DNA from: Agathobacter sp.
GTDB lineage: Bacteria > Bacillota > Clostridia > Lachnospirales > Lachnospiraceae
Length of the DNA: 64,000 nt
Reading direction: 5' to 3'
Assembly: GCA_017409825.1 (NCBI GenBank)
Contig: JAFQRZ010000005.1
Span: forward strand, 32,502 to 96,501
This document shows positions 5,577-43,856 of the stretch, one piece after another. The notes beneath the pieces were generated by a model. The model did not search any database. It had not been told where the DNA came from and was given only the letters and a program-made list of their open reading frames with translations. A program made the translations under genes and the position numbers. Position 1 is the stretch's first letter. Every line of letters starts with the position of its first letter.

Positions 5577-5587
5577 GAGGTTCGCAG

Positions 5588-9499: not shown

Positions 9500-9525
9500 G
9501 ATATCATGAATAAAATAAGCACATT

Positions 9526-9622
9526 TTCGGCTAGAATATATTTGTGTTATAAATTAGCCGAGATGTGCTTGAATTTTGAATGTTCTTCGGCTAAAATATA
9601 AACAGAATAAAAAATAGCCGAA
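9526..9622. repeat. Two tandem 37-bp inverted-repeat units, 60-bp period
   Basis: Unit 1 (9526-9562) and unit 2 (9586-9622) each have TTCGGCTA, exactly 21 bp, then TAGCCGA followed by G or A. The spacers are AT-rich and partly alike (GAATATA / AAATATA at the left). The units begin 60 bp apart and unit 2 ends 13 bp before the start codon of the AAA_14 gene. They could be operators, recombination sites or RNA hairpins. They are not a CRISPR array because there are only two units and no spacers of that kind. Confidence 0.85.
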
Positions 9623-9635
9623 AGAGGTCGTTAAC

Positions 9636-10859: not shown

Positions 10860-10873
10860 ATAGGAGAAGAGAT

Positions 10874-11428
10874 ATGAAATGGTTTATCGCGTCCGACATT
10901 CATGGGTCGGCATATTATTGTGAGAAATTATTAGAAGCTTACAGAAGAGAACAGGCAGACAAGATGTTATTGCTCGGAGATGTTTTATATCATGGGCCAC
11001 GCAATGATTTACCAGAAGGTTATGCACCAAAGAAAGTCATTGCCATGTTAAATGAATTGGAAAATGAGATTCTTTGTGTGCGTGGCAATTGTGAAGCAGA
11101 AGTGGATCAGATGGTGTTGAATTTCCCAGTGCTCGCAGATTATGCGATTTTGACTGTGGGAAAGAAAATGATTTTTGTGACACATGGCCATGTGTTTAAC
11201 AATAACAATCTGCCACCGATTAAGACTGGTGATATTTTGTTGCATGGTCATACCCATGTGCCTGTTTGCGAAGAGTACGAAACTCATATTTACATGAATC
11301 CAGGTTCTGTTTCCATTCCAAAAGAGAATTCGCCACATAGTTATATGGTATTCGATGGGGAACGTTTTGAGTGGAAGACATTAGAGGGCGATATCTATAA
11401 GGAATATGTTTTAAAAGAGGAAAATTAG
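10874..11428 (+). CDS. yfcE: YfcE family phosphodiesterase
   Basis: A calcineurin-like metallophosphoesterase of 184 aa, matching the YfcE/MJ0936 family (Mn-dependent phosphodiesterase). Metal-ligand motifs in order: SDIHGSAYYCEKLL (DxH at residues 6-8), LLGDVLYHGPRND (GD), VRGNCEAEVD (the GNH block with Cys for His), THGHVFN and LHGHTHVP. Start ATG 10874 follows TAGGAGAAGAG. A frame back to 10847 overlaps the upstream gene and lacks an SD. The next gene starts 1 bp after its stop. Confidence 0.88.
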   Translation: MKWFIASDIHGSAYYCEKLLEAYRREQADKMLLLGDVLYHGPRNDLPEGYAPKKVIAMLNELENEILCVRGNCEAEVDQMVLNFPVLADYAILTVGKKMIFVTHGHVFNNNNLPPIKTGDILLHGHTHVPVCEEYETHIYMNPGSVSIPKENSPHSYMVFDGERFEWKTLEGDIYKEYVLKEEN

Positions 11429-22930: not shown

Positions 22931-23644
22931 ATGAGTATTAATGTAATTTTATTTGATTTAGACGGAACCTTGTTGCCAATGGATCAGGACACATTTATCA
23001 AGGCATATTTGGGCGGCATGGCGAAGAAACTGGCACCACATGGCTACAATCCAGATGAACTGGTGAAGGCAGTATATGCCGGTATGAAAGCGATGACAAC
23101 CAATGATGGTTCTTGCACGAATGAAGAGGCATTTTGGGCAGCATTTACAGGACTTCTTGGCGAAAAAGTAAGAGAGGATATGCCAATCTTTGATGAATTT
23201 TATCGAAACGAATTTCAGGATGTAAAGAATATCTGTGGCTTTCTTCCAGAAGCAGCACAGACCGTTCGAACATTGAAAGAAAAAGGCTATCGTGTGGCAC
23301 TTGCGACGACTCCAATGTTCCCAAGTATCGCGACAGAAAGTCGTATTCGCTGGGCTGGAATGGAGCCGGAGGATTTTGAAATCTTCACCACTTATGAAAA
23401 TTATCATTTTTGTAAACCAAGTTTAAATTACTACAAAGAAGTAGTGGAAAAGCTTGGTGTAAAGCCAGAAGAATGTCTGATGGTTGGAAACGACGTAGGT
23501 GAGGATATGATTACCGAGGAGCTTGGCATGAAGGTATTCCTTTTGCCAGCGGATTTGATTAACAAGGTTGGCAAAGATATTGCGCAGTATCCACAGGGAG
23601 ATTTGACTGATTTACTGAAGTTTATTGAGGGATTACATGAGTAA
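22931..23644 (+). CDS. HAD family hydrolase
   Basis: A 237-aa haloacid dehalogenase-superfamily phosphatase. Motif I is complete (LFDLDGTLLPMD, Asp9 and Asp11). An alpha-helical cap covers about residues 15-95. Motif II is LATTPMF, the motif III Lys is in FCKPSLNYY and motif IV is GNDVGEDM. It is the fourth gene of the metal-uptake operon with no gap. A link to metal handling is suggested by position only. Confidence 0.87.
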   Translation: MSINVILFDLDGTLLPMDQDTFIKAYLGGMAKKLAPHGYNPDELVKAVYAGMKAMTTNDGSCTNEEAFWAAFTGLLGEKVREDMPIFDEFYRNEFQDVKNICGFLPEAAQTVRTLKEKGYRVALATTPMFPSIATESRIRWAGMEPEDFEIFTTYENYHFCKPSLNYYKEVVEKLGVKPEECLMVGNDVGEDMITEELGMKVFLLPADLINKVGKDIAQYPQGDLTDLLKFIEGLHE

Positions 23645-24563
23645 AAAGAGTACAATAGAAGTAGACATGGACAAAAATATAGGGACATTCCTCGTATTGC
23701 TTTTGATATTGGCAATCGGAGTGGGACTTTGTATTTGGGGAGTGCTGGATATCAACAAAATCAATGATATAAAAGACCATGGTGTAGACACTACTGGTTA
23801 TGTTGTGGATTATGACAGAAGCACAGACGAGGATGATGACGACATCTACTATGCGATTTATGAATACCATGTAGATGGTGTGACATATACCGTGAAAGAC
23901 TCGGATTATTCGTATTCTAAACCAACGCAAGGAACAAAGCATGTGGTCTACTATGATCCAGAAAATCCGCAGGAGGCATTGACGGATTTGGAAGGTGGAT
24001 TGGGTGAGATATTGCTTATCATTGGTTTGATTTTCGGATTGACAGGACTTGCATTTATTATGGCTTGGATGAATGTAAACGAGTCAATTATACGAATTGC
24101 GTTGGGAAGCATGATGGTTTTAATCGGTTTTGCAGTTCCGATTGCGGTTCGTTCCTGGTTTTTGTTTCTCTTCACCGCGATTTTCGGTGTGTTAGGATTG
24201 GTAATTGTGATAAAGGCGATTACCAAGCTAACAGGAAATGAAGGTGGTGTTGTAGACCAGCTATTGGACGATGGTGTGGAGCAGGTCGGCGAAGTGATTC
24301 AAAACATCGCCGAAAAAGTAGAAACGGAAACAGATGAACACGCTGCGCAAATGCTGTACATATCGTCAATTGTAAAAGGAGTTCTAGTGATTGTACCAGG
24401 TGCGATGATTGGTTTGTTTGGACTGTTTATGCTTTTGACGGCGAGTCCGTTTATGGGAATATTTATGATAGGGTTCGGCGGATTTCTCATCGTGTTAGGT
24501 GTGAAAGAGATAAAGCAGGGAATCGAAATAAGGAATGAAGCGAAGAAGATAAATAGGGAGTAG
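23637..24563 (+). CDS. DUF3592-containing membrane protein
   Basis: A 308-aa membrane protein of unknown function. Residues about 14-36 form a first helix (FLVLLLILAIGVGLCIWGVL). An extracytoplasmic beta-rich part with the DUF3592 pattern follows (VVDYDRSTDED, YEYHVDGVTYTV, VYYDPENPQEAL). Four or five further helices come later, separated by an acidic soluble stretch (VDQLLDDGVEQVGEVIQN). ATG 23637 overlaps the preceding stop by 8 bp and is preferred over 23625. A terminator overlaps its stop codon, so it closes the operon begun at znuA. Confidence 0.8.
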   Translation: MSKKSTIEVDMDKNIGTFLVLLLILAIGVGLCIWGVLDINKINDIKDHGVDTTGYVVDYDRSTDEDDDDIYYAIYEYHVDGVTYTVKDSDYSYSKPTQGTKHVVYYDPENPQEALTDLEGGLGEILLIIGLIFGLTGLAFIMAWMNVNESIIRIALGSMMVLIGFAVPIAVRSWFLFLFTAIFGVLGLVIVIKAITKLTGNEGGVVDQLLDDGVEQVGEVIQNIAEKVETETDEHAAQMLYISSIVKGVLVIVPGAMIGLFGLFMLLTASPFMGIFMIGFGGFLIVLGVKEIKQGIEIRNEAKKINRE

Positions 24564-24595
24564 CTATTACAGGTGAGTAGTAGCTACTCCTTTTT
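24557..24595 (+). terminator. Terminator ending the znu/HAD/DUF3592 operon
   Basis: GGAGTAGCTA (24557-24566) pairs perfectly with TAGCTACTCC (24581-24590), followed by TTTTT. The stem includes the stop codon of the preceding gene. Confidence 0.9.
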
Positions 24596-24596
24596 C

Positions 24597-24635
24597 TATA
24601 CTTTTTGAAAATGCCTTTGGATTTCATGGGGTATA
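24597..24635 (+). promoter_or_regulatory. Promoter with shared CTATACTTTTTGAAAATG element (copy 1)
   Basis: CTATACTTTTTGAAAATG starts at 24596 and TATAAT lies at 24630-24635, giving a 21-bp gap from TTGAAA to the -10. The same element with the same 21-bp gap occurs before the genes at 30767 and 33538, linking these three genes. Confidence 0.6.
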
Positions 24636-24662
24636 ATGAAAGAAAAGAAAGGAGGAAAGAGT

Positions 24663-25502
24663 ATGTGTGAAGAAATAAGGATGCGAAACTGGTATTTGGA
24701 ACCAATGCGAATAGAAGGGCACTATTCCTGCAATGGAGTATTAATAAGTTCGAGTGAGAAGGGGCGTGTAAAAGGAGGCGTCGTGGGAGAAATAACACCC
24801 ATAGAGGGAGGGTTTGCTATGTTGTCTCCGAAAAAAAGACAGCGATACATATGCAAAATAGAAGATGTATTGCTGAGTAAGTTGGAGACCACCAAGCAGG
24901 TGTTAGAGATAAAAGATATAGATAGTTCTTCTCTAGAGAATGCTTCAAAATTGGTGGAAGAGAGAATAGAACAAAAGAAAAAGGAAGTACAAACATTTTT
25001 GCAAGATAACGATTTGTATCTGGAGTTTTGTGGCGAGTGGCTGCAATACTGTTTTGTGAAACGAAATGGATTGATATATCATGCAGATACTTCGTCTAGC
25101 ATTACAGATTATAGCGAAGAAGTTATAGCATATATGAATGCAAACTGTTGGCTTCAGTGTGTGGATTTTCAAAATGAGGATGCATGCAGTTATACGATGC
25201 ATTTTGCATATTTTATGGATAGAAAGGGGAAAATGGATAGTCTGCATATTTTGAATATGTGGGAAGGATTACAAAATGTTTATATCAAACAAAGCTGTTC
25301 CGTTGTTTTCACGGTATACGGATTTGAAAAAAATATAGTTTTTCGTCCAGAAGAAGAGGGTGTGAAAAAAGTAGTAGCGGGAAAAGAAAATTACAGAGGC
25401 AGAATAAGTATGTATAAGAGTGCAATAAAGGCACTCGAAGAGGAAGCGGAATATTATTTACGAAAGGAAGAGATGAAGAATGGGAACTTATGTAGTGGGT
25501 GA
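24663..25502 (+). CDS. Hypothetical protein, 279 aa
   Basis: I do not recognise the family. It is a soluble protein, MCEEIRMRNWYLEPMRIEGH at the start, with a charged helical middle (residues about 85-115, KLVEERIEQKKKEVQTFLQD) and a Cys/aromatic-rich C-terminal half (FCGEWLQYCFVKRNGLIYHA, ANCWLQCVDFQNEDACSY). No signal peptide. ATG 24663 follows AAAGGAGGAAAGAGT. It overlaps the phosphatase gene downstream by 23 bp, a strong sign of coupled translation, so it may be a regulator or substrate of that phosphatase. Confidence 0.75.
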   Translation: MCEEIRMRNWYLEPMRIEGHYSCNGVLISSSEKGRVKGGVVGEITPIEGGFAMLSPKKRQRYICKIEDVLLSKLETTKQVLEIKDIDSSSLENASKLVEERIEQKKKEVQTFLQDNDLYLEFCGEWLQYCFVKRNGLIYHADTSSSITDYSEEVIAYMNANCWLQCVDFQNEDACSYTMHFAYFMDRKGKMDSLHILNMWEGLQNVYIKQSCSVVFTVYGFEKNIVFRPEEEGVKKVVAGKENYRGRISMYKSAIKALEEEAEYYLRKEEMKNGNLCSG

Positions 25503-26250
25503 TATCCATGGACATTTTGATGAATTGATGTCTTTAAAAGAGAAAATTGAAAACTTAGACCCAGATGCAGTGTTTATTTTGGTGGGAGATATTTTGGATC
25601 GTGGTCCTAAGTCACTGGAAATGATTCGATGGGCGATGGAACATATTTCGAAGGATGGAAAGTATAGAATGGTTCTTGGCAACCATGAGGATTTGAAGAT
25701 TGAGTGGTGGAAAAAGTATAAGAGAAATCGATGCGAAAATGAGCAGTATGGTTTTCATAAATTTTTAATCAAAGGAGAAGTATCAGAGTCAGAGGTAGAG
25801 GCGATGATAGAATTCTTCGAATCTTTACCAATCGTTATCGAAATGGATGTACAGACAAAAGAAAAAGAGCAGCATTATATCATCGCTCATGCGGGAATGT
25901 GTTCGGATTTTTTGACAGAGGATGGTCATTTCATTTATCAAATGTTGGAACGTGAGTCGTGGTTACGATATGGGGAAGAAGAAACGGGTGTTGAACCTAG
26001 AATGCATATCTTATGGAACCGAAATTTCTGGGGTAATTTGTGGAAGCAAGATACCATATTTGTGCATGGTCATACTCCAACTTGTGTGAATGATTTGACC
26101 ATACGTGGTGCAGTCCCAGGAAGGATTGATTTCAAAAAAAAAGATATTAATGTAGATTGCGGCATACATATATACGACAAATATCGCAATTTGGCAGCGA
26201 TCCGATTAGAGGATTTAGAAGAGATTTATCTTTGGGAGAATGGAGAATAA
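25480..26250 (+). CDS. PPP-family metallophosphoesterase (protein phosphatase-like)
   Basis: A 256-aa phosphatase of the PPP fold, related to bacteriophage lambda phosphatase, PrpA/PrpB and diadenosine tetraphosphatase. All metal motifs are present: GDIHGHFDE (7-15), GDILDRGPKS (36-45), LGNHED (66-71), IIAHAGM and FVHGHTPT. It could dephosphorylate proteins or cleave dinucleotide polyphosphates; the sequence does not decide. It overlaps the unknown upstream gene by 23 bp and is followed after 3 bp by a second metallophosphoesterase, a rare tandem. Confidence 0.88.
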   Translation: MGTYVVGDIHGHFDELMSLKEKIENLDPDAVFILVGDILDRGPKSLEMIRWAMEHISKDGKYRMVLGNHEDLKIEWWKKYKRNRCENEQYGFHKFLIKGEVSESEVEAMIEFFESLPIVIEMDVQTKEKEQHYIIAHAGMCSDFLTEDGHFIYQMLERESWLRYGEEETGVEPRMHILWNRNFWGNLWKQDTIFVHGHTPTCVNDLTIRGAVPGRIDFKKKDINVDCGIHIYDKYRNLAAIRLEDLEEIYLWENGE

Positions 26251-26253
26251 AAT

Positions 26254-27351
26254 ATGAATTATTATATTAGCGACCTGCATTTGGGACATAACAATGTCAT
26301 TCGATTTGACGATCGTCCTTTCAGAGATGTGGAGGAGATGGATGAAACACTTATTGAGAATTGGAATCGCAAAGTAAAAGAGGAAGATCATGTATATATC
26401 ATAGGAGATTTTTGTTACCACAATGAGAAGCTTGAAGAATGGTATCTAGAACAACTAAAGGGCAGAAAACATCTTGTGATTGGCAATCATGATAAGAAAT
26501 TATTGGAAAATGCAAAAGCAATGGCACATTTCGAGTCGGTGGACAAGATGATGCATGTTTCGGATGGTGGTAAGGAGATTTGCCTTTGTCATTTTCCGAT
26601 TACTGAGTGGGATGGATTTTATAAAGGCAGTTGGCATATTTATGGGCACATTCATTGGAAAAAGAATGAAGCATTTGTTCATTTAAAATCGTATGATAAG
26701 GCATTAAATGCTTCGGCGTGTATCAATCAGTATGCTCCTTGCACAATAGATGAACTGATAGAGAATAATCAGATATTTAAAAAATCGTATGCTGTGAGCT
26801 GTATGCCGACATATTTGCCAACGGAAGATATTTGGGCAGTAAATACAGCACATGGAGTAGAGTGCGGAAGTATAAATTATGTTCTTAGTGAGTTTGGAGA
26901 AACGGGGCTGGTGTATCACTTTAATGATTGTTATCATCCAGAACCACAGAACCCAGGCCATGTACATGGTTTTGATGCAGTACTTGTAGCATTGGTGGAA
27001 GATTATAAAAATTTTTCTATCGAACATTTTCAGGCGGAGTATAGTGCACAGGAACTAGAAATGATACGAAAGGTACAGGAACGTTTACGGAGGATGGGGA
27101 AAAGTAGGAGAGTTTGTTTCCAGGAGTTTCATCGTGTTATGCAGAAATTAATCATAGAAAAGTTTCCTAGTGCAGAGTTTCGGATTGTAAAAGGTGGAGA
27201 TTTTATTCAGGATGGAATAATGGAAGTTTGTCAAGGTGAAAAGAAAATTAGATATAAGCCGGCTGAATTATATCAGAAAGGCTATGAGAGTAATGATTTT
27301 GAGGGTGTGATAAGTGAGTTTTTGGAGTTGTGCTCTCGAGAATTTGAGTAG
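26254..27351 (+). CDS. Metallophosphoesterase fused to an unknown C-terminal domain
   Basis: The first about 165 residues are a calcineurin-like phosphoesterase: YISDLHLGHNNVIRFDDRPF, IIGDFCYH, VIGNHDKK, LCHFPITEWDG and YGHIHWKK. Such domains usually occur as separate 160-180-aa proteins. About 195 further residues form a domain I do not recognise, with an N-terminal Cys-containing part (AVSCMPTYLPTEDIWAVN, VECGSINYVLSEFGE) and a helical, basic end (MIRKVQERLRRMGKSRRVCF). The SD is GGAGAATAAAAT. Located 3 bp after the PPP phosphatase, it probably acts in the same pathway. Confidence 0.82.
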   Translation: MNYYISDLHLGHNNVIRFDDRPFRDVEEMDETLIENWNRKVKEEDHVYIIGDFCYHNEKLEEWYLEQLKGRKHLVIGNHDKKLLENAKAMAHFESVDKMMHVSDGGKEICLCHFPITEWDGFYKGSWHIYGHIHWKKNEAFVHLKSYDKALNASACINQYAPCTIDELIENNQIFKKSYAVSCMPTYLPTEDIWAVNTAHGVECGSINYVLSEFGETGLVYHFNDCYHPEPQNPGHVHGFDAVLVALVEDYKNFSIEHFQAEYSAQELEMIRKVQERLRRMGKSRRVCFQEFHRVMQKLIIEKFPSAEFRIVKGGDFIQDGIMEVCQGEKKIRYKPAELYQKGYESNDFEGVISEFLELCSREFE

Positions 27352-27369
27352 ATTTGTAAGGAGTAATCA

Positions 27370-27651
27370 ATGAAAAAAGAGAGATATTCAGCAAAACAAT
27401 TATGTGCAATGTATCGGAATAAATATATTGCAGTAAATCATATATCGAAGAATAAGGATAACCTTATAATTGGTGCAGAAATAGTAAAGGTGTATGATAC
27501 TTTGGATGATTGCAAACAGAATATTGCAGAAATTAAGTTCTTGAAAGCAATACATAAAGACGATTATGATATTATTTATGGTGACTATCGAGATTATGTA
27601 ACGAAAAGAACGAGTGTGGATTTAGATGCGTTTGTTCCGTTGGTTTATTGA
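27370..27651 (+). CDS. Hypothetical protein, 93 aa
   Basis: A small soluble protein starting MKKERYSAKQLCAMYRNKYI, rich in Lys, Asp and Tyr, without membrane segments. I do not recognise it. It has an SD (AAGGAG) and follows the phosphoesterase gene by 18 bp, so it is likely the last gene of that operon. The 111 bp after it hold the next promoter. Confidence 0.65.
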   Translation: MKKERYSAKQLCAMYRNKYIAVNHISKNKDNLIIGAEIVKVYDTLDDCKQNIAEIKFLKAIHKDDYDIIYGDYRDYVTKRTSVDLDAFVPLVY

Positions 27652-27704
27652 TTTATGTGTAGGTGATAGGATTGATGTGGATTGGCCTTTGCATACTTTT
27701 TGAT

Positions 27705-27733
27705 TTGAAAAAGTTTTATTTTTGTGTTATAAG
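27705..27733 (+). promoter_or_regulatory. Promoter of the 195-aa hypothetical gene
   Basis: TTGAAA (27705-27710), 17 bp, TATAAG (27728-27733). It is preceded by CATACTTTTTGA, a partial match to the element before 24663, 30767 and 33538. Confidence 0.6.
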
Positions 27734-27762
27734 TAGGATACATCATTAAGGAGGTATTTAAT

Positions 27763-28350
27763 ATGAATTATGTAAAACAGTTTTATAATTTAATGACAAG
27801 AGAAGATTTCAAATGTGCAGGTATTACAGAAAGAATCACTATGGTAAAAAGAGAAATATATGAACCAAACTTCTATAAGGGCACGAGTGATGGATGGGAT
27901 CATACTTGGAACCATACGAAAAAATTAGTAGAAGAATTGGTGCAATGTGAAGTTCGGACATCAAGAGTGTTGCATACATATACATTGAGTTCTAAGTCAA
28001 AATGGTCTACGGTTCACTATGCAAATATTGGAGAAGTAGAGCATAATTCAGAATTCATAAAATTATTAAATGTAATACTTCCTTTGTGGGGAGAAAAGAT
28101 ATCTATGGAAGCAGCATATCTATCACATGAGGTAAAGGAGGGGACGCCTATAGAAGAATCGATTATACGTTTTGGACATGTAAAAACGGAATATGCAAGT
28201 CAGCTGGGAGAATCAGAAAATAAATCTACTCTTTTTATTCAAATCAATAGTTATGATCAAGTATATAATGGAAAAGATAGCTATGCACCAAGTGATTATT
28301 CAGGGGAGAATAAGACGGTAACTGAAGTGCTTGAGATTATTGCATACTAA
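27763..28350 (+). CDS. Hypothetical protein, 195 aa
   Basis: I do not recognise this protein. It begins MNYVKQFYNLMTREDFKCAG and contains His/Trp-rich GTSDGWDHTWNHTKKLVEEL near residues 47-66 and an acidic C-terminal half. No signal peptide or membrane helix. AAGGAGG precedes ATG 27763. It has its own promoter and is followed by an independent promoter, so it appears monocistronic within the island. Confidence 0.7.
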   Translation: MNYVKQFYNLMTREDFKCAGITERITMVKREIYEPNFYKGTSDGWDHTWNHTKKLVEELVQCEVRTSRVLHTYTLSSKSKWSTVHYANIGEVEHNSEFIKLLNVILPLWGEKISMEAAYLSHEVKEGTPIEESIIRFGHVKTEYASQLGESENKSTLFIQINSYDQVYNGKDSYAPSDYSGENKTVTEVLEIIAY

Positions 28351-28357
28351 CTTTTGG

Positions 28358-28389
28358 GACTCTGTGTGATATAATGATTGCACGGAGTC
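28358..28389 (+). promoter_or_regulatory. Promoter -10 within an inverted repeat upstream of the 762-aa gene
   Basis: GACTCTGTG (28358-28366) and CACGGAGTC (28381-28389) form a 9-bp dyad with one G-T position. TATAAT (28370-28375) lies between the arms. Here the ribosome binding site (GGGAGG near 28405) is outside the dyad, so this looks like an operator rather than a translation block. Confidence 0.5.
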
Positions 28390-28417
28390 TATTTATTATG
28401 GTCAGGGAGGAAACATA

Positions 28418-30706
28418 ATGGCAAAGGAAGAAGTAAAGATTGGGCAGTTACCGAGAGATTTAAATGCCATTCGCGATACCATGAGAGATATTTGCCTGAG
28501 AGGATATCGGGAACGAAAATATTTTGAGCGAATTGGTATAGGCTTAAGTAATTATGATAATCAAAGAAATCAAATAGAATATTTGTTAAATGAAACAGAG
28601 GCATTAAATGAGCTGAGGTTTATAAATCAACCAATGGAATGGCAAGATAATCCATTAGCACAGCTGTTTTGTCAAACGATTCCAAATGTACAAGATTTTT
28701 TCTATTCCTATGCACTTTTGAATTATCTAAGCTGTATAGAGGATGATAAGGCGACGATAGGATATATTAAGGATAAACTCGATGAGGAGTGTCAACAAGA
28801 AAAAGAGTTTGAATGCCAGCAGATTAAAAGAAAATTAGAGAATTTGGAAAAACAGCTTCAAATAACTGGAAATGGAAGAGGCGATAGTAAAAGCTGGACA
28901 TTGAATCCGCCTATATGGGAATTGGATGATGAGAATAGATTTTCTTATAATGAGCTGATAAAATTGTATGATTATGTTTGTTTTTTGGCTGGAACAATGC
29001 CTTTTGAACTGCCGTTTTATCTCTTGAAAAAGAATATCGAATTATGGATGGAAAGAGAATATAAAGCAGAATTTGAGAAACATGAAAAAGAGATGTTTTT
29101 GTTCCAACATAGAAACCAAACTAATGTGTTGGATAGTGAAATAATATATGCCCTTCTGATGTGGAAAAAGAAATCTCAGAAGGATGTAATGATTTTTTAT
29201 AATACGAATTCATATGAATATGGAGAACTTTTGCACGAGGGAAGGCAAATAAAAATAGAGCAAAAGGGAAAAAGGGGGGAAAAGACAGGATACCGACCAT
29301 TACTTTTGAATTTAGAAAAATTGGAATATGATTGTCACACGGGTATCCTAAAAGCATTAAACAAAATAGGTGAAATGGATGAATTCGATGTATTATTGCC
29401 AAGAAATATTATGCTATACACATCCAGTGAGAAGAAGGTAGATAAAAACCAAATTTTATTGAATTGGAAAAAGGAGGAGCCTTCTGAATTGAAGATGGCT
29501 TTTCATACGTTGAATAATGTGTATTTTGAACGACTTATCAAGTTGACATTTAACTATATGAAGGATACGTGGACGAAAGAAGAATTGATTAACAATCTCT
29601 TTAAAGGAGATGAATATTGGTATACAGAAATTTTCGATAGAGTGATTCGATGTAAAGCAGAGTGTGAAAAAAAACCACGGAAAACAAAAGACTTGCAAAA
29701 AGAAGAAAAAGCAAAAAGAGAAAAAAAAGTAAGTGTAGCTCTTTTTGAAGAAAATGGGGATAAGTATTCATGGAAAATTAAACCGGATTATAAATTATTT
29801 TATACACCAAGACTCGCATTAGAAGCATTAAAGAGCATTCCAGAAATTCATCAGTTTACCTCTCTTTTTTTAGAAGATGATATTGTGGAGAAAATAAAGA
29901 AATGTACAGAGGGATTTGAATCGACCTGGAATATCAACGATATTGTATTGGTAAATTCCAAAGAGGGGAATTTGTCCCGAGAAGAAAAAAATGTATTTGT
30001 GAAAACTTTAATAAAAAAATTTAGAGCGAAACAATTTATTTTCGATAAACAAAGCAAAAAGTATTATCCACTTCGTTTACAATATTCGATTTATAAAGAT
30101 GAATTTCGTGTATTGGCAAGAAAAGTTGGGTCGGATGAATTAAAAATGCTTTCGCAAGAAAACCTTGATATCAGCCGAGCAGCACTTGAAAATACGAACT
30201 TGGTAAAATCAAGTAGGACATATAAAAATGAGTTGGATAAATATATGCGGAAAATGCATTTTAAATTGAAAATGTGCTTAAAAGTGGAAGGTGTGCTTGA
30301 TGTAAATTGGAAATGTTTGTATGATGCAATGGAGAAACTTGAAAAGAGTTTAGAAGAGATAGAGGAAACTGAAGATAATAGAGAGCAAATTTCCAAATTA
30401 AAGGAAGCGCTAAAGAAGAAGGAAGAGATAAAATCAATCGAAATGAAGTATAAGAAAGAGACACTTACAGAAGATATGCCGTTTGATGTTGCAGAATTGG
30501 ACAATATTCTTTCGGATGGCTGGATGAATCTCTTAGCTGCCTATAAACATGAGACACACTACACATTCGCAAAACCAGGTGAAAAGTCAGGTGAATTTGA
30601 TGTAACACTTTGGTATTGGTATGAAGATGAAAATGAAATCATAGAAGAATTTAAAAGTTTTAATTCCGCTTTTAAGATGGTAGACCTCGAAACGAATATT
30701 CTATAG
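28418..30706 (+). CDS. Large hypothetical protein, 762 aa, with WYL-like segment
   Basis: A soluble, highly charged protein with no recognised overall family. The N-terminal 150 residues are helical and end in a predicted coiled coil (EECQQEKEFECQQIKRKLEN). Residues about 420-450 are very basic (KKPRKTKDLQKEEKAKREKK). Around residues 540-590, KKYYPLRLQYSIYKDEFRVL followed by SQENLDIS resembles the beta-rich WYL ligand-binding domain of defence-associated regulators; this is weak inference. Another coiled coil lies near residues 625-690, and the C-terminus is acidic. The SD is GGGAGG. The following gene's promoter begins 4 bp after the stop. Confidence 0.75.
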   Translation: MAKEEVKIGQLPRDLNAIRDTMRDICLRGYRERKYFERIGIGLSNYDNQRNQIEYLLNETEALNELRFINQPMEWQDNPLAQLFCQTIPNVQDFFYSYALLNYLSCIEDDKATIGYIKDKLDEECQQEKEFECQQIKRKLENLEKQLQITGNGRGDSKSWTLNPPIWELDDENRFSYNELIKLYDYVCFLAGTMPFELPFYLLKKNIELWMEREYKAEFEKHEKEMFLFQHRNQTNVLDSEIIYALLMWKKKSQKDVMIFYNTNSYEYGELLHEGRQIKIEQKGKRGEKTGYRPLLLNLEKLEYDCHTGILKALNKIGEMDEFDVLLPRNIMLYTSSEKKVDKNQILLNWKKEEPSELKMAFHTLNNVYFERLIKLTFNYMKDTWTKEELINNLFKGDEYWYTEIFDRVIRCKAECEKKPRKTKDLQKEEKAKREKKVSVALFEENGDKYSWKIKPDYKLFYTPRLALEALKSIPEIHQFTSLFLEDDIVEKIKKCTEGFESTWNINDIVLVNSKEGNLSREEKNVFVKTLIKKFRAKQFIFDKQSKKYYPLRLQYSIYKDEFRVLARKVGSDELKMLSQENLDISRAALENTNLVKSSRTYKNELDKYMRKMHFKLKMCLKVEGVLDVNWKCLYDAMEKLEKSLEEIEETEDNREQISKLKEALKKKEEIKSIEMKYKKETLTEDMPFDVAELDNILSDGWMNLLAAYKHETHYTFAKPGEKSGEFDVTLWYWYEDENEIIEEFKSFNSAFKMVDLETNIL

Positions 30707-30709
30707 TTT

Positions 30710-30761
30710 TTGAAAATGGCATAACCTCCTTTGTGATAGACTAATATCACAAAGGAGGTTA
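30710..30761 (+). promoter_or_regulatory. Promoter in a 17-bp inverted repeat that holds the ribosome binding site
   Basis: TAACCTCCTTTGTGATA (30722-30738) pairs perfectly with TATCACAAAGGAGGTTA (30745-30761); the loop is 6 bases. The SD AGGAGG is in the right arm. TTGAAA at 30710-30715 belongs to CTATAGTTTTTGAAAATG, and TAGACT (30737-30742) is a -10 candidate 21 bp away. Read-through mRNA would hide the SD in the stem; mRNA started at this promoter would lack the left arm. Confidence 0.7.
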
Positions 30762-30766
30762 ATTTT

Positions 30767-31732
30767 ATGGAACAAAAAGAAGAACGTTTAGGTGCATTCG
30801 TGCTACGCCGAGGAAGAGAATTATTTGGAGATGTCTTTATCGCTGAAAGTAGCGAACATGAGATGCCGAAGTTTGTAGTTCGAGAGATTCTAGGCAAGCA
30901 TGAGAAAACAAGTGTCGTGGAAATGCAAATCATGCAGTATGCAGATGGGACAGAGGTCTTTGTAAGTGAGGGTGGAGGCTTTTTGCGAAAGGAAGTCTTG
31001 CAAGAATTACAGAAGAAAGGAAAGTGCAAAATCGGTATTCGGAACAATCGAGTTGGGATTCGCGAGAAATATGTGACTCCGGTAGGGGAATGGTTGCGAG
31101 TGAATTATTTTTCTACCGAAGAGAAAACGTGTGTGGAATGTTTTTTGACAGAGTTGAGTGAACTTCGCAAATCGACGCGAGAAGATGTTTGCTATCCAGA
31201 GGTAAAGCAGAAGGACCTTTGTGCAATCGTTTGGAAGATTGTGAATGATACGTTTAATAGTGATATGTTAGAGGTATTAAAGACAGAGTATTTTCCAAGT
31301 TTTGATACAAAAGAAAAAATTAATTACGCATTATTTACTATTTGGATACGGGATGATTTTTTTGTACAGGTAAGAATTTTCCCAGATTATCAGGAATTTG
31401 TATGTCAAAGACCAGGAAGATTTTGGAGAAAATATGATCGTAGTAAGTTGTCTGTAGAAATGTGGAAAAGCTATGATTCCAAGATGAGGGAGTACGAAAA
31501 AGAATTAGGCAATGGATTAAGTAAGATTGACGAAAGAAGTGTTTTAATGCGAGGTGGAGATATGGAATTTCCATATATTCAAATTGGAGAAGTACGGACT
31601 TCAAACCCGAAGGCAGTGGAGTATTTATGCAAATTTATGTATCAAAAAGCGGACTCACAGTCGTTGTGGCGTGAACTTAGGAAAGATACCAATTATGTAG
31701 AACAGAGAGAACGATATCTGCACTTTTACTAA
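30767..31732 (+). CDS. Unknown-family protein, 321 aa (paralog A)
   Basis: Not a family I recognise, but clearly homologous along its length to the 337-aa protein at 33538. Shared segments include GIRNNR, VGEW-RV-YFST, VW-VND-FN, TEY-P-FD and the strongest block I-RDDFFVQVRIFPDYQEFVCQ then RPGRFWR (residues about 197-225), followed by QIGEVRTS near the C-terminus. No membrane segment or signal peptide. The many conserved Asp, Arg, Trp and Cys residues in one block suggest an active or binding site. The SD lies in a hairpin described separately. Confidence 0.75.
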   Translation: MEQKEERLGAFVLRRGRELFGDVFIAESSEHEMPKFVVREILGKHEKTSVVEMQIMQYADGTEVFVSEGGGFLRKEVLQELQKKGKCKIGIRNNRVGIREKYVTPVGEWLRVNYFSTEEKTCVECFLTELSELRKSTREDVCYPEVKQKDLCAIVWKIVNDTFNSDMLEVLKTEYFPSFDTKEKINYALFTIWIRDDFFVQVRIFPDYQEFVCQRPGRFWRKYDRSKLSVEMWKSYDSKMREYEKELGNGLSKIDERSVLMRGGDMEFPYIQIGEVRTSNPKAVEYLCKFMYQKADSQSLWRELRKDTNYVEQRERYLHFY

Positions 31733-31742
31733 AAACAAAAAT

Positions 31743-31758
31743 AAGCCCCAATGGGCCT
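31743..31758. terminator. Bidirectional terminator between convergent genes
   Basis: AAGCCC (31743-31748) and GGGCCT (31753-31758) form a short stem with a 4-base loop. The plus side is followed by ATTCTTTTTC and the minus side by ATTTTTGTTTT. It serves paralog A and the minus-strand RHH gene, whose stop lies in it. Confidence 0.7.
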
Positions 31759-31927
31759 ATTCTTTTTCATCTGCGTCACGCTCTTTCAAACTTTCCAAGC
31801 CAAGTCGAATCAGTTCGACTGTAGCAGCGGAGCGGCTGTTATATCGGTTTTCAAAACGATAGTCATCTATCTGGCGTAGCAAATCGTCGTCTACGGTAAT
31901 ACAGTATCTTGGATTTTGTGTTGGCAT
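31757..31927 (-). CDS. Small ribbon-helix-helix (CopG/Arc-type) protein, 56 aa
   Basis: A minus-strand gene of 56 codons starting MPTQNPRYCITVDDDLLRQI. The pattern is a short beta strand (RYCITVDDD), helix A (LLRQIDDYRFENRY), the turn NSRSAA and helix B (TVELIRLGLESLKER), as in dimeric ribbon-helix-helix repressors. GAGGTGAAAAATT supplies the SD and a TTTACA-N17-TATAAT promoter precedes it. It faces away from another RHH-like gene at 32075, so the two probably regulate the shared control region, for example as antitoxin or autoregulator. Confidence 0.8.
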   Translation of the reverse strand: MPTQNPRYCITVDDDLLRQIDDYRFENRYNSRSAATVELIRLGLESLKERDADEKE

Positions 31928-31948
31928 AATTTTTCACCTCGTTTTTCT

Positions 31949-31977
31949 ATTATATCGTAGAAACGTGGGTCTGTAAA
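31949..31977 (-). promoter_or_regulatory. Promoter of the minus-strand RHH gene
   Basis: On the minus strand TTTACA (31977-31972), 17 bp, TATAAT (31954-31949). It is only 20 bp from the divergent promoter at 31998, so a protein bound between them could control both. Confidence 0.7.
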
Positions 31978-31997
31978 TATCAAGAAATGGAAAAATA

Positions 31998-32054
31998 TTG
32001 ACAGAGAGTAGGTTGCGGATTATAATTTTAGCAAAGGTTCATCAGTGATGAACC
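31998..32054 (+). promoter_or_regulatory. Promoter and leader hairpin of the plus-strand RHH operon
   Basis: TTGACA (31998-32003), 17 bp, TATAAT (32021-32026), a consensus promoter. The leader holds GGTTCATC (32036-32043) / GATGAACC (32047-32054), a perfect 8-bp dyad with a 3-base loop, close to the expected transcription start, and a likely operator. Confidence 0.75.
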
Positions 32055-32074
32055 GAGAGGAGAGGATACATACG

Positions 32075-32224
32075 ATGAATGAAATTAAGGTGTCATTATC
32101 ACCAGAATTGGAAGCAGAGATTGACCGATTGGAAGCAGAATATCTTGGTGAGATTTCTAGGGAGGAAATTTGCAAAATGCTACTTCAAATGGGATTAGAA
32201 AAGGCACGAGAAAATGGTATGTAA
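32075..32224 (+). CDS. Small ribbon-helix-helix-like protein, 49 aa
   Basis: A 49-aa protein: beta strand (MNEIKVSLSP), helix (ELEAEIDRLEAEY), turn (LGEISRE) and helix (EICKMLLQMGLEKARENG). This fits a ribbon-helix-helix DNA-binding protein, and it resembles in layout the divergent gene at 31757-31927 without close identity. AGAGGAGAGG supplies the SD. The Cys-rich membrane protein gene starts 26 bp later, so it heads a four-gene operon. Confidence 0.75.
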   Translation: MNEIKVSLSPELEAEIDRLEAEYLGEISREEICKMLLQMGLEKARENGM

Positions 32225-32250
32225 AAAGAAAAAGAAGGGAGAACAAAGAG

Positions 32251-32541
32251 ATGGCACAGTGTCCATTATATGAATGGTGGCCGGCGGATGGAGGTTATCC
32301 TGCAGAGCATCATTGTCATCATGAAAGAAAGGCGATGTTTGACCAGAATAAGTTGAATTATTATTGCTTTAATAATTGTACGGAATGTTGGAGATATCAG
32401 CAAAAATATGGTCGAAGAGACCCAAGTACGATTCCACCAACGCGAATGATTTATCGAGAAAAAAAGGGCGGAGGCCTGGGTACACTCTTTATTATTGGTT
32501 TTATAGTATGGGCTGTTATTAAATATTTAGGAATTTTATAG
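32251..32541 (+). CDS. Cys-rich small protein with C-terminal membrane anchor, 96 aa
   Basis: The N-terminal part (residues 1-70) is rich in Cys, His and Trp (MAQCPLYEWWPADGGYPAEH, CHHERK, YYCFNNCTECWRYQQKYGRR), suggesting metal binding or disulfides. The last 22 residues after a Gly-rich turn (GGGLGTLFIIGFIVWAVIKY, then LGIL) form one membrane helix. No signal peptide, so the Cys-rich part probably faces the cytoplasm as a tail-anchored protein. ATG 32251 is preceded by AAGGGAG; the longer frame from 32170 overlaps the RHH gene. The gene at 33209 has the same design. Confidence 0.72.
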   Translation: MAQCPLYEWWPADGGYPAEHHCHHERKAMFDQNKLNYYCFNNCTECWRYQQKYGRRDPSTIPPTRMIYREKKGGGLGTLFIIGFIVWAVIKYLGIL

Positions 32542-32551
32542 GAGAGAAAAG

Positions 32552-33196
32552 ATGGGATTTTGGGATATTGAAAAATTGGAACGTATTGAAAAAAAGCTGT
32601 TTGATTTATTTCCACCTCGTGATACACAGAATATACATATACTTCAAGAAGGGGAACAACCACAAGCTAGAATTCTACCAGCGGAGTATGTGCTTAAAGA
32701 AGAAGCATATGCAGGTGAGTTGAAAGAATATGCTTTTGATGGAGAACTTTTAAATGCTATATGGAACATAATGAAAGATATGAGTTACGGGAATCCAGAT
32801 CTGCAGACATATTTGATAAACGAATGTGATAAATATTTAATTCAGAATGGATTATATAGTGACGGTGGGACAAATGAATGGCTAAAAAGATTGAATAAAT
32901 ATACTAAGAATTGGAGTCCGGAGGCTCAGCTAATTAGGTTTCACAGAATAGCAGATATAGCAGATATAGAATGCATAAAATCTACGATAGAAAGATTGAA
33001 TGTACATGAATCAGATGTAGCTTTTATTTTAATGCTACACATGCAGTGGGCTTGTCCAACTTGGCCAGCAGATTGCTTTATGGGCGGTTCAAAATCAGGG
33101 TGGAGAGAACTATCTGGCCGAACGCTTTATGCTTGGTGGGAACGTAATGGAGAAAGAATGTTAGATAGTAATGTATCGGATATAAAAATGTTTTAG
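32552..33196 (+). CDS. Hypothetical protein, 214 aa
   Basis: An unrecognised soluble protein. The N-terminus is amphipathic (MGFWDIEKLERIEKKLFDLF), the middle is helical, and the C-terminus has a Trp/Cys/Gly-rich patch (LHMQWACPTWPADCFMGGSK, GWRELSGRTLYAWWERNG). It is translated from GGAGAGAAAAG, 10 bp after the Cys-rich membrane protein and 12 bp before a second one, so the three products may form one membrane-associated complex. Confidence 0.7.
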   Translation: MGFWDIEKLERIEKKLFDLFPPRDTQNIHILQEGEQPQARILPAEYVLKEEAYAGELKEYAFDGELLNAIWNIMKDMSYGNPDLQTYLINECDKYLIQNGLYSDGGTNEWLKRLNKYTKNWSPEAQLIRFHRIADIADIECIKSTIERLNVHESDVAFILMLHMQWACPTWPADCFMGGSKSGWRELSGRTLYAWWERNGERMLDSNVSDIKMF

Positions 33197-33208
33197 GAGG
33201 AAAAAGAT

Positions 33209-33457
33209 ATGTTAGGTAGACCATGTCCATTTAGAAATGAATGTAGAAAATATAAGACAGAAACAAGTCTGAACAAACAGATGTATTGTGAAAGTACAAA
33301 TAATGGATGGGAGAGATGCGCACAATATCCCGGAAATGCCAATAAACCAGAAATTCAACAAGAATACAAAAATGTACAAGAAGGTCAAGGATGGGGCGGA
33401 CTTTTAATATTAGGTCTTATCATTTTCGGTGCACTGAAATTGTTTGGAGTTATATAA
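33209..33457 (+). CDS. Cys-rich small protein with C-terminal membrane anchor, 82 aa
   Basis: This has the same plan as the 96-aa protein at 32251: an N-terminal Cys-containing part (MLGRPCPFRNECRKYKTETS, YCESTNNGWERCAQYPGN) and a Gly-led C-terminal helix (GWGGLLILGLIIFGALKLFG). The helices align well (GGLG-LFIIGFIVWAVIKYLG against GWGG-LLILGLIIFGALKLFG), indicating duplication. The SD is TTAGGAGG. It ends the RHH-led operon. Confidence 0.7.
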   Translation: MLGRPCPFRNECRKYKTETSLNKQMYCESTNNGWERCAQYPGNANKPEIQQEYKNVQEGQGWGGLLILGLIIFGALKLFGVI

Positions 33458-33475
33458 GAGAAGTTTCTATACTTT

Positions 33476-33532
33476 TTGAAAATGGGATGACTTCCTTGTT
33501 GGTATAATCGTTATATCAACAAAGGAGGTCAT
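33476..33532 (+). promoter_or_regulatory. Promoter in an inverted repeat that holds the ribosome binding site (paralog B)
   Basis: The left arm 33487-33506 (ATGACTTCCTTGTTGG...) pairs with the right arm 33512-33532 (...CAACAAAGGAGGTCAT), allowing one bulge and two G-U pairs. TATAAT (33503-33508) is at the loop side with an extended TGG. The SD AAAGGAGG is in the right arm. TTGAAA (33476-33481) in CTATACTTTTTGAAAATG is 21 bp before the -10, as for 24663 and 30767. Confidence 0.7.
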
Positions 33533-33537
33533 TTTTT

Positions 33538-34551
33538 ATGCTTATTTTACCAGAAGGAATTAGAGAGTATGTGGTGAGAAGATGTAAGGAACTGTTTGGA
33601 GATGAGGTTGTGATTGAGGAAAGGGAGTTATCTCCAGATGAAGATGGTTTCATAAGAGGAAGATTTCTTGCCAGGTATCCAGTGTTTTACAAGCTAAGAA
33701 TCAAGGTTCTTAAGGAAAAAGATTTGGAGGAGTTAGAAACCGTAATTCATTTGATGCAGGGCAACGATTGCAGAGGCATCATGATATGTAATGGTGGCGG
33801 TTATCTACATGATGCTACCATTCAGAAACTGCAGGAGAATGGAAATTGTAGAATGGGAATTCGCAACAATCGTTTAGGTCAGGATGCACACTTTGAAAGC
33901 AAGGTAGGCGAATGGAATCGTGTGCATTATTTTAGTACAACAGATAAAGAATGTGCTGAAATTTTCTTGCAGGATTTATATGAATGCAAGATGTCCTATC
34001 AGGCAGGCTATCCTTGCGAAGATAGGGAACCACTGGATTTTATGGCAAAGGTTTGGCTGACGGTGAATGATGTATTTAATAAGACGTATGCAAAAACACT
34101 TGTTACTGAGTATTATCCTGCGTTTGATTCTAAAAATCCAATCTATTATGATTTGTTTCGAATCTGGCTACGTGATGATTTTTTTGTAGAGGTCAGACGT
34201 TATCCAGACCGACAGGAGTTTGTATGTGAACGTCCTGGCCGTTACTGGCGTTGTGGTGACAGAAAACAAATGATGGGAAATGCACAAGCAAGTTATGATG
34301 ATTATATGGAGAAGTTAGAAGACGAGTTTGCAGAGAGAATGTATCATATTGACCGTAATAGTATTTTTATTATGGGTGATGATGAGGAATATCCAACTTA
34401 TCAGATTGGAGAGTTTCGTACATCAGATATTGCTGCGGTAAAAGCATTCTGTAAGGGGTTAATGGTAAATAAACTAAATAATTTTATGAATGACTTTGTA
34501 ACGTCAAAGCCACCTATTTCACAGAATGAGCTGCATAATTATTTTTATTAA
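33538..34551 (+). CDS. Unknown-family protein, 337 aa (paralog B)
   Basis: A homolog of the 321-aa protein at 30767. It shares the core IWLRDDFFVEVRRYPDRQEF then VCERPGRYWR, plus MGIRNNRLG, VGEWNRVHYFST, VWLTVNDVFN, TEYYPAFDSK and QIGEFRTS. The N-terminal 75 residues differ, and the C-terminus adds a polar tail. Soluble, no signal. The two paralogs flank the RHH/Cys-rich operon and have the same unusual promoter-hairpin, so they were probably duplicated together with their control regions. Confidence 0.75.
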   Translation: MLILPEGIREYVVRRCKELFGDEVVIEERELSPDEDGFIRGRFLARYPVFYKLRIKVLKEKDLEELETVIHLMQGNDCRGIMICNGGGYLHDATIQKLQENGNCRMGIRNNRLGQDAHFESKVGEWNRVHYFSTTDKECAEIFLQDLYECKMSYQAGYPCEDREPLDFMAKVWLTVNDVFNKTYAKTLVTEYYPAFDSKNPIYYDLFRIWLRDDFFVEVRRYPDRQEFVCERPGRYWRCGDRKQMMGNAQASYDDYMEKLEDEFAERMYHIDRNSIFIMGDDEEYPTYQIGEFRTSDIAAVKAFCKGLMVNKLNNFMNDFVTSKPPISQNELHNYFY

Positions 34552-34557
34552 CGATAA

Positions 34558-42995: not shown

Positions 42996-43039
42996 TTGAC
43001 ATACATGCCTCCTTTTCTTATAATATAGGAAAAGGAGGC
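42996..43039 (+). promoter_or_regulatory. Promoter in an inverted repeat that holds the ribosome binding site (XRE-Uma2)
   Basis: TTGACA (42996-43001), 17 bp, TATAAT (43019-43024). GCCTCCTTTTC (43007-43017) lies between -35 and -10 and is the exact complement of GAAAAGGAGGC (43029-43039), which holds the SD. The -10 is in the loop. mRNA reading in from the surface protein gene would hide the SD; mRNA from this promoter would not. Confidence 0.75.
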
Positions 43040-43046
43040 GATTTTT

Positions 43047-43856
43047 ATGACCGTCAAAGAAATGAACGATAGAAGAAAAGAATTAGGATATTCTTATGAA
43101 AGGGTAGCAGAATTGTCAGGGGTTCCAGTAGGTACAGTACAGAAAGTACTGGGGGGAATTACGAAGGCACCACGCTATGAGACCTTGAAAGCGTTGGAAA
43201 AGGCATTACGTCCAGTAGAAGATGACTGGTTTTTTTATGATTGGGAAAAGGATGTTTCCGTAAGAGAAAACTTGACCTATGCTGGGAGAAAACAGGGGAT
43301 GTACACCATAGAGGATTATTATGCAATATCCGAGGATGAAAGGGTAGAATTGATTGATGGTGTAATCTATGATATGAGTTCGCCTACTTCGATTCATCAA
43401 GCCATAGCAGGAAAAATTTATAACAAGTTAGAAAATTATGTCACAGGTAAAAAAGGACCGTGTATCCCGATTATTTCACCTATTGATGTACAATTAGACT
43501 GTGATGACAAGACAATTTTGCAGCCAGATGTTATCGTGGTGTGTAACAGAGAGAAGTTCAAAAAAGGTATCGTATATGGTGCACCAGACTTTGTGGTAGA
43601 GGTGCTGTCTCCATCTACACGAAAAAAGGATAAACGCTTGAAATTAAAGAAGTATATGGATGCATGTGTGCGTGAATATTGGATTGTAGATCCAAATAAG
43701 AAAAATATTGTGGTTTATGCAGATGATGGCGATGATGATTATGATATTTTTGTATACACCTTTGATAATGAAGTTCCTGTTCGTATTTTCAATGAAGAGT
43801 GCAAAATTGACTTCAAAGAAATCTATGATGATATTGCATTTTTGTACGAAAAATAA
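43047..43856 (+). CDS. XRE-type HTH fused to Uma2-family nuclease domain
   Basis: A 269-aa two-domain protein. The N-terminal helix-turn-helix (residues 1-60: NDRRKELGYSYERVAELSGV, PVGTVQKVLGG) is of the Cro/CI type. The C-terminal part (about 85-265) is the Uma2/DUF820 fold of the PD-(D/E)XK superfamily: YELIDGVIYDM-like ELIDGVIYDMSSP, ILQPDVIVVCNREKF, APDFVVEVLSPSTRKKDKRL and YWIVDPNKKNIVVY. Catalytic residues are expected at the D of QPDV and the E-x-L of VVEVLSPSTRKKD. Cellular role unsettled; Uma2 genes are often mobile. It has its own promoter-hairpin. Confidence 0.88.
   Translation: MTVKEMNDRRKELGYSYERVAELSGVPVGTVQKVLGGITKAPRYETLKALEKALRPVEDDWFFYDWEKDVSVRENLTYAGRKQGMYTIEDYYAISEDERVELIDGVIYDMSSPTSIHQAIAGKIYNKLENYVTGKKGPCIPIISPIDVQLDCDDKTILQPDVIVVCNREKFKKGIVYGAPDFVVEVLSPSTRKKDKRLKLKKYMDACVREYWIVDPNKKNIVVYADDGDDDYDIFVYTFDNEVPVRIFNEECKIDFKEIYDDIAFLYEK

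Follow-up and report, generated by a model that had tools for sequence, protein, structure and literature searches.

The window analysed here is a stretch of 64,000 nucleotides from the genome of Agathobacter sp. (contig JAFQRZ010000005.1, positions 32,502 to 96,501), and our subject is an island of 13 open reading frames that lies in it between a gene for a DUF3592 protein and hypC. A sequence-only reading of the window had described about 10 kilobases (kb) of mostly unrecognised genes at this place; that description was confirmed at the coordinates given here, and its count of twelve genes gave way to the 13 that follow.

24663–25502, forward strand: gene A, 279 amino acids, without a recognised family; overlaps the start of B
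25480–26250, forward strand: gene B, a PPP-type metallophosphoesterase (ApaH/PrpE/NinI-like)
26254–27351, forward strand: gene C, a second metallophosphoesterase (residues 1–180) with a rare C-terminal extension
27370–27651, forward strand: gene D, 93 amino acids, without a recognised family
27763–28350, forward strand: gene E, 195 amino acids, without a recognised family
28418–30706, forward strand: gene F, 762 amino acids, an apparent fused WYL-pair regulator
30767–31732, forward strand: gene G, 321 amino acids, without a recognised family, paralogue of K
31757–31927, reverse strand: gene Rm, a small RHH-like regulator by eye, with a near-consensus promoter at 31977–31949
32075–32224, forward strand: gene Rp, a small RHH-like regulator by eye, with a consensus promoter at 31998–32026
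32251–32541, forward strand: gene H, Cys-rich with a C-terminal hydrophobic tail, paralogue of J
32552–33196, forward strand: gene I, 214 amino acids, without a recognised family
33209–33457, forward strand: gene J, Cys-rich with a C-terminal hydrophobic tail
33538–34551, forward strand: gene K, 337 amino acids, without a recognised family, paralogue of G

The curated Pfam cut-off was passed by one of the 13 proteins, B (Metallophos). In scans with NCBIfam, PHROGs and PADLOC, to which 10 of the 13 were submitted (all except J, Rm and Rp), the best matches outside B and C were weak: G with PADLOC Specificity_I at an E-value of 0.0022, I with PDC-S14 at 0.011, and E with a PHROG at 0.011. Relatives were scarce in genome samples that held approximately one species per genus of the family. 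K had no homologue in 298 other genomes of the family or in 61 other genomes of the genus, and E and I matched none of 193 other family genomes. For A there was a single weak match (5.7e-4) among 249 other family genomes, within a 611-residue protein that we judged by eye to be an unrelated membrane protein and dismissed. A match of K in another locus (L043; E-value 0.004) was also rejected, since long genes in another frame or on another strand fill the stretch concerned, and one of these looks by eye like a 5'-nucleotidase.

The tandem metallophosphoesterases of the sequence-only reading were upheld by Pfam for B and by phrog_547 for C. Specifically, B matched Pfam PF00149 (1.1e-18), phrog_246 (1.3e-34) and ApaH in the PDB (1.7e-10), and C, which fell below the Pfam cut-offs, gave 6.9e-46 with phrog_547, a family of phage phosphoesterases. 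Its C-terminal extension is rare: it was found in one of 249 other family genomes and at two loci in genome contigs, one of which is probably on that same contig, and it occurs in loci L035/L043. In a further locus (L042, 783–1856) it is joined to a different, Pfam-blank protein, and because of this fusion to another kind of protein the extension looks like a movable domain.

Upstream of several of these genes lies a promoter element that we refer to as private. Its occurrences in the island are as follows.

24596–24613, forward strand: element CTATACTTTTTGAAAATG (18 nucleotides) with -10 TATAAT at 24632–24637, before operon A-B-C-D
27688–27708, forward strand: element variant TTTGCATACTTTTTGATTTGA with -10 TATAAG at 27728–27733, upstream of E
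30701–30718, forward strand: element with TAGACT at 30737–30742, a -10 by position only, before gene G
33467–33484, forward strand: element with -10 TATAAT at 33503–33508, before gene K

The element, CTATA[C/G]TTTTTGAAAATG, stands before A-B-C-D, G and K at 18 nucleotides ahead of the -10 position in each case. Exact copies occur in the 2.8-megabase assembly three times only, before A, G and K. With up to two mismatches allowed there were four sites, these three and one elsewhere with two mismatches (reversed control, three), and the element together with a -10 was found at two sites, those of A and K (control, none). Since several units share a promoter element that is intact nowhere else in the assembly, the sequence argues for an island that acts as one system rather than as a set of unrelated neighbours, and in this respect the candidate single system with shared control elements of the sequence-only reading gained support. 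In particular, because the element is shared, the comparison argues that A to D, G and K, perhaps with E, act together, with F as their likely regulator. A generic promoter scan of the region returned 33 sites against a mean of 41.6 in shuffles, so that single consensus matches carry little weight; terminator-like sites numbered 10, against 3.7 in shuffles. Three viral contigs that held the island promoter pattern carried no relative of the island.

The sharing of the element would mean less if there were no system at all, and if a variable site had gathered unrelated orphans, with G and K, and H and J, merely duplicated together with their leaders. Indeed, the 45-nucleotide stretches ahead of G and K agree at 80%, and the element common to these two genes could therefore have come from duplication, and no relative elsewhere has the island genes together; other genes, moreover, occupy the site in two relatives, as described below. 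However, the same element precedes A exactly and E as a variant, neither of which is paralogous to G or K (phmmer, E-values up to 0.01), and elsewhere in the assembly no intact copy was found. We consider an assembly of orphans unlikely, if deserving of serious consideration.

The likely regulator of these promoters, F, looks like a WYL-type pair in a single chain. Among 61 other genomes of the genus, one (G346) matched F, through the first 250 residues of F. Pfam recognises WYL and WCX domains in the G346 relative. Its neighbour is a second protein, in which there is a WCX domain too, and a DUF2828/DUF7788 protein comes next; the C-terminal half of F is 20% identical to the second protein over 207 residues (E-value 1e-4 in a single comparison), and the G346 partner, used as a single-sequence query at default settings, found F at 1.6e-15. 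An N-terminal alignment search for relatives of F matched 30 of 249 other family genomes, and 25 of these (G051, G065, G223, G225 and G068 being left out) together with G346 gave a set of 26 loci (L032 and L080–L104). A second related gene is present in all 26, directly adjacent in 25 and separated in one (L089). A joint profile matched both partners, and first and second partner were therefore told apart by order. When profiles of the two partners were compared with F, residues 13–254 matched the first (60.9 bits) and residues 440–618 the second (16.2 bits, with a further 4.8 bits at 655–753), weakly in the case of the second but in order. By comparison, 200 shuffles of F reached maxima of 5.3 bits (first partner) and 8.4 bits (second partner), and the remaining 258 proteins of the calibration set of 259, which includes F, reached 3.7 and 5.7 bits. 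With the composition filter off, F was the sole match among the 73 open reading frames of the window (4.2e-19 for the first profile and 1.8e-5 for the second). Because both partner profiles match F in order along the chain, we take F to be an apparent fusion of two WYL-type regulators, which makes more precise what the sequence-only reading had called a WYL-like protein. F also had a weak match in a viral locus (L126; 5.5e-4).

The loci that hold the separate WYL pairs have features of their own. Within the fetched stretches RtcB was present in 16 of 26, DUF2828 in 6, Band_7 in 6, and any of the three in 20, and five example proteins were confirmed by Pfam; because the stretches differ in length (approximately 6.6 to 12.8 kb, and 20 kb for G346), the RtcB count is a lower bound. 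One locus (L104, 2426–8155) has its WYL pair beside a vWA protein (Pfam) and kinase- and phosphatase-like genes (by eye) in place of RtcB. The loci have in common an element, TCGCAACTTTTTTNAAATGAT. A looser form of the motif gave 31 matches in the 26 loci, of which 21 were kept and 10 dropped by eye as poor or as not preceding a fitting gene, a choice made with the sequences in view; 10 matches came from the reversed control. The 21 kept sites, in 21 loci, precede RtcB (12), DUF2828 (5), Band_7 (2), another gene (1) and no called gene (1). In all 21 chosen sites TANNNT stands at offset 39, and at any other offset from 30 to 49 it was found in at most five. At most sites the -35 place, for a 17-nucleotide spacer, is taken by ATGATT, ATGATA, GTGATA or GTGATT, none of them a -35 box. 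The arrangement TCGCAACTTTTTTNAAATGAT-N18-TANNNT thus recurs upstream of RtcB, DUF2828 and Band_7 genes in many genera of the family (L032, L080–L103). The RtcB-type promoter pattern was absent from viral contigs.

Because an element at a fixed distance is present and a -35 box is missing at most of these sites, the promoter type is as expected for an activator that substitutes for the -35 contact. PafBC is described as such a case: this WYL heterodimer activates from its own promoter class through sigma adaptation, inserted between the DNA and sigma domain 4, the domain that normally touches the -35 element (PMC11804915). The WYL pairs and their rigid promoter would likely constitute an RNA-repair regulon in the family. 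WYL and CARF domains were proposed early as ligand-sensing regulators of defence, and the rtc RNA-repair operon was linked to a CARF regulator, RtcR (PMC4012209); WYL regulators have also been suggested to sense RNA fragments with cyclic ends (PMC9503650). A literature search, mostly of open-access sources, found no description of an RtcB-linked WYL pair, of its promoter or of a fused form. The right half of the island element resembles the element of the RtcB loci, and the version before E scores highest with the full motif.

Inverted repeats overlap the -10 of the promoters of G, K and F.

30722–30761, forward strand: G hairpin, 17 base pairs, perfect; the -10 overlaps the loop and the ribosome-binding site lies in the 3' arm
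33485–33534, forward strand: K hairpin; the -10 is at the top of the 5' arm and the ribosome-binding site lies in the 3' arm
28357–28390, forward strand: 14-base-pair inverted repeat around TATAAT upstream of F (-19.3 kcal/mol, z -6.1)

The leaders of G and K, whose products are 40% identical, form strong hairpins (-26.7 kcal/mol, z -8.4, and -26.3 kcal/mol, z -7.1, respectively), energies that were reached by none of 200 shuffles, and when cut at the assumed start they are unstructured. Since the -10 overlaps the loop (G) or tops the 5' arm (K), RNA from the gene's own start would lack the 5' arm; that the G and K transcripts begin downstream of this arm is predicted from the -10 only. The duplicated unknown proteins with shared control elements that the sequence-only reading had pointed to are thus found in G and K, with their common promoter element. 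A hairpin scan of the window gave seven rows. Three, those of G, K and a Uma2 gene, have 16 to 17 pairs; two more, with 14 and 12 pairs, lie elsewhere, and the remaining two are mirror images. No row came from the reversed window, and 507,583 bases of other loci gave four matches of 12 to 14 pairs and none of at least 16. The Uma2 case lies outside the island, before a gene for a putative HTH-Uma2 nuclease (43047–43856), where TATAAT and the ribosome-binding site share one hairpin (43006–43040; -22.6 kcal/mol) just after TTGACA, a guarded layout as in G and K. Viral contigs hold a similar layout, with a promoter over the ribosome-binding site, before varied genes in 25 stretches; in two of the viral contigs (L117 and L126) an arrangement like it precedes a phosphoesterase gene related to C. 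In I-TevI and other genes of phage T4, a hairpin leader seals the ribosome-binding site in read-through RNA (PMC2988022). The leaders of G and K suggest, without proving, that these proteins are harmful if made by read-through. A structure model of K was of low confidence and too poor for use.

The same repeats could be read in another way, with F as a BrxR-like repressor that binds at these three -10 elements, through their inverted repeats, while the upstream element serves another activator. For BrxR, the WYL regulator of a phage-defence island, repression and the binding of inverted repeats are reported (PMC9122601), and the position of the repeats over three -10 elements would suit such a protein. 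Against this, F and G have repeats of different sequence, and A, although preceded by the element, has no strong repeat (z -2.4). The repeats of G and K, moreover, hold the ribosome-binding site, that of F lying outside its repeat, and the K stem contains G-U pairs, as suits RNA. We think repression by F through these repeats quite unlikely.

Comparison with two related species of the same genus (G312 and G311) bears on the origin of the island. The stretch that diverges from both runs from approximately 23629 to 34553 and includes the DUF3592 gene; homology with G312 ends at approximately 23628 and restarts at 34554, three bases past the stop codon of K. The flanks are kept in both species, with znuC-like, znuB-like and HAD genes on the left and hypC, hypD and hypE on the right (names by eye), and between them lie only about 2 kb with different contents: G312 has an oxidoreductase-like protein of 466 residues together with a small two-gene unit, and G311 two other genes (identities by eye in each case). 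These genomes are incomplete (71% and 58%, respectively), yet the compared stretches are continuous. The island genes of at least 150 amino acids (eight) have a mean GC content of 0.362, compared with 0.404 (standard deviation 0.024) for 44 other genes of the window, a few of which are equally AT-rich (0.334 and 0.345). On this comparison the island is a gain or a swap at a variable chromosomal site, because the flanks are conserved, the contents differ in relatives, and the island is AT-richer on average. As an observation on the site itself, the accessory genes that it holds in the relatives lie at 4062–6412 of locus L023 and 9406–11408 of locus L024, and the two-gene unit of G312 is toxin-antitoxin-like by eye.

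A gain of this kind raises the possibility that the island is the remnant or the cargo of a phage, satellite or other mobile element, its genes being accessory. The low GC content fits, as do the viral contigs with a promoter over the ribosome-binding site and the frequency in phages of the enzyme domain of C (2127 records, none covering 80% of C). However, PHROGs found no integrase or phage structural family in the ten proteins scanned, and its strong matches were confined to B and C. There was no phage relative of K, F, I or E and no plasmid relative of K, and pattern scans of viral contigs gave no relative of K, F or the C extension (nor, for K, one in genome contigs); such scans detect only relatives that have short exact peptides in common, and absence there is weak evidence. 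A mobile-element origin of this sort seems to us decidedly improbable.

Between G and K lie the small genes. The RHH regulators of the sequence-only reading correspond to Rm and Rp, which look RHH-like by eye; neither gave a Pfam RHH match at E-values up to 1, and no known toxin was recognised beside them as a partner. Rm and Rp diverge from two near-perfect housekeeping promoters (31949–32026), unlike the -35-less promoters of A, G and K. The two tail-anchored Cys-rich proteins that had been noted are H and J, both of which are Cys-rich with a C-terminal hydrophobic tail, and they are related to each other (phmmer, 3.9e-5).

Our preferred reading, to which we would give somewhat less than an even chance, is that these genes form a stress or defence island that was gained and regulates itself, with F as its activator and with phosphoesterases and a guarded G and K output. 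In the proposed mechanism, F, as a single-chain paired WYL regulator, would bind a nucleic-acid ligand, either damaged RNA or single-stranded DNA, and in its ligand-bound form would bring housekeeping RNA polymerase to promoters in which the private element replaces the -35 box. The sequence itself shows the genes, the likeness of F to a WYL pair, the element, the hairpins possible in the leaders and the variability of the site; we infer the ligand, the binding and activation by F, the start sites and the stress or defence role. A-B-C-D, G and K, and probably E as well, would be switched on together; B and C would then have nucleotides, RNA ends or phosphoproteins as substrates, and the likely effectors would be the twins G and K, functions that are likewise conjectural. 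Read-through RNA from F or J would fold and seal the ribosome-binding site of G or K, whereas RNA from the G or K promoter itself, if it starts where predicted, would lack the 5' arm and be translatable. A response to nucleic-acid damage or infection would fit what the island holds: a sensor of a family that occurs beside RNA-repair genes, a pair of phosphoesterases and twin guarded proteins.

Several observations weigh against this reading. First, the assignment of F is indirect at several points: with default HMMER filters neither partner profile reports F, so that the composition filter must be off; neither F nor its two parts matched Pfam WYL or WCX (two first partners did match, and one tested second partner was also blank); and the first WYL domain is unmatched in F, the alignment stopping at residue 254. 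Second, the link between the island element and the RtcB loci is partial. A, G and K lack the TCGCA half and are off in spacing by two nucleotides; a full position-weight scan of the window with the RtcB-locus motif did not pick the island sites, which speaks against a direct link, and the promoter element TCGCA...TTTTTT...ATGAT had no match in the window; because of these discrepancies F is only the likely activator of the A, G and K promoters. The fixed-position p values, taken over five offsets with the better of two and based on 20 of the 21 kept sites (the TANNNT offset count uses all 21), are modest (A, approximately 0.001; E, 0.0009; K, 0.008; G, 0.02). No relative of RtcB, DUF2828 or Band_7 was found among the 73 open reading frames of the window (E-values up to 0.1). 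Third, the regulon has uncertain members. The E promoter has a -35-like TTGAAA (27705–27710), which A, G and K lack at the usual place, and for this reason E is the least certain member; the private element is absent before Rm and before Rp-H-I-J, and since Rp-H-I-J is served by a consensus promoter of its own, this part may constitute a separate module. Fourth, G and K are paralogous, so that their common leader may be inherited through duplication, their inverted repeats may be protein-binding sites instead of RNA hairpins, and WYL regulators can repress, as BrxR does. Finally, a defence function, which the sequence-only reading had raised, is not supported so far: in PADLOC only C reasonably matched (PDC-S10, 3e-5), weakly and over 64 residues of a generic enzyme domain, nothing was found beyond this and the G and I matches given above, and neither BREX nor any other complete known defence system was recognised in the ten proteins scanned.

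We regard as doubtful the bolder proposal that this is a new kind of nucleic-acid-damage or anti-phage island, in which a WYL-pair sensor derived from the regulators of RtcB loci commands a private regulon by sigma adaptation, with phosphoesterases and translation-locked twin effectors. If it were true, the regulatory apparatus of an RNA-repair locus would have been fused, given its own element and moved to orphan genes, and RNA-damage sensing would be linked to new effectors. F, its element and the guarded leaders would offer a direct handle on genes without relatives. Islands under the control of WYL regulators are already known (PMC9122601), and, independently of the island, the RtcB-linked WYL pairs with their rigid promoter element suggest an RNA-repair regulon in the family.

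The island can be compared with several known systems. With the BrxR family F has in common that a WYL-type regulator lies inside an island (PMC9122601); it differs in that BrxR represses and that our island lacks BREX or another complete known system. With PafBC it shares two WYL-type halves and, in the mechanism proposed here, activation from promoters at which the regulator takes a position between the DNA and sigma domain 4, a likeness by description rather than by direct sequence comparison; the features of a PafBC-type activator are one HTH on the DNA, the other in contact with sigma domain 4, and single-stranded DNA as ligand. Nearer in sequence order are the tandem WYL regulators beside RtcB, DUF2828 and Band_7, in which the two regulator halves follow each other as in F and whose loci, like the island, have an upstream element at a fixed distance from the -10. 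In contrast to those pairs, F is one chain with an unrecognisable first WYL domain, has no RNA-repair gene among the 73 open reading frames of its window, and is associated with an element that is only half alike. The hairpin-leader genes of phage T4 resemble G and K in the sealed ribosome-binding site and in the position of the promoter, from which the RNA starts beyond the 5' arm; unlike them, G and K are chromosomal, have a promoter of another type and have start sites that are predicted only. Finally, the enzyme domains of B and C are like those of ApaH/PrpE/NinI-type phosphatases and phage phosphoesterases (phrog_547), from which this pair is set apart by its tandem arrangement, its apparent operon with the orphan gene A and the rare extension on C.

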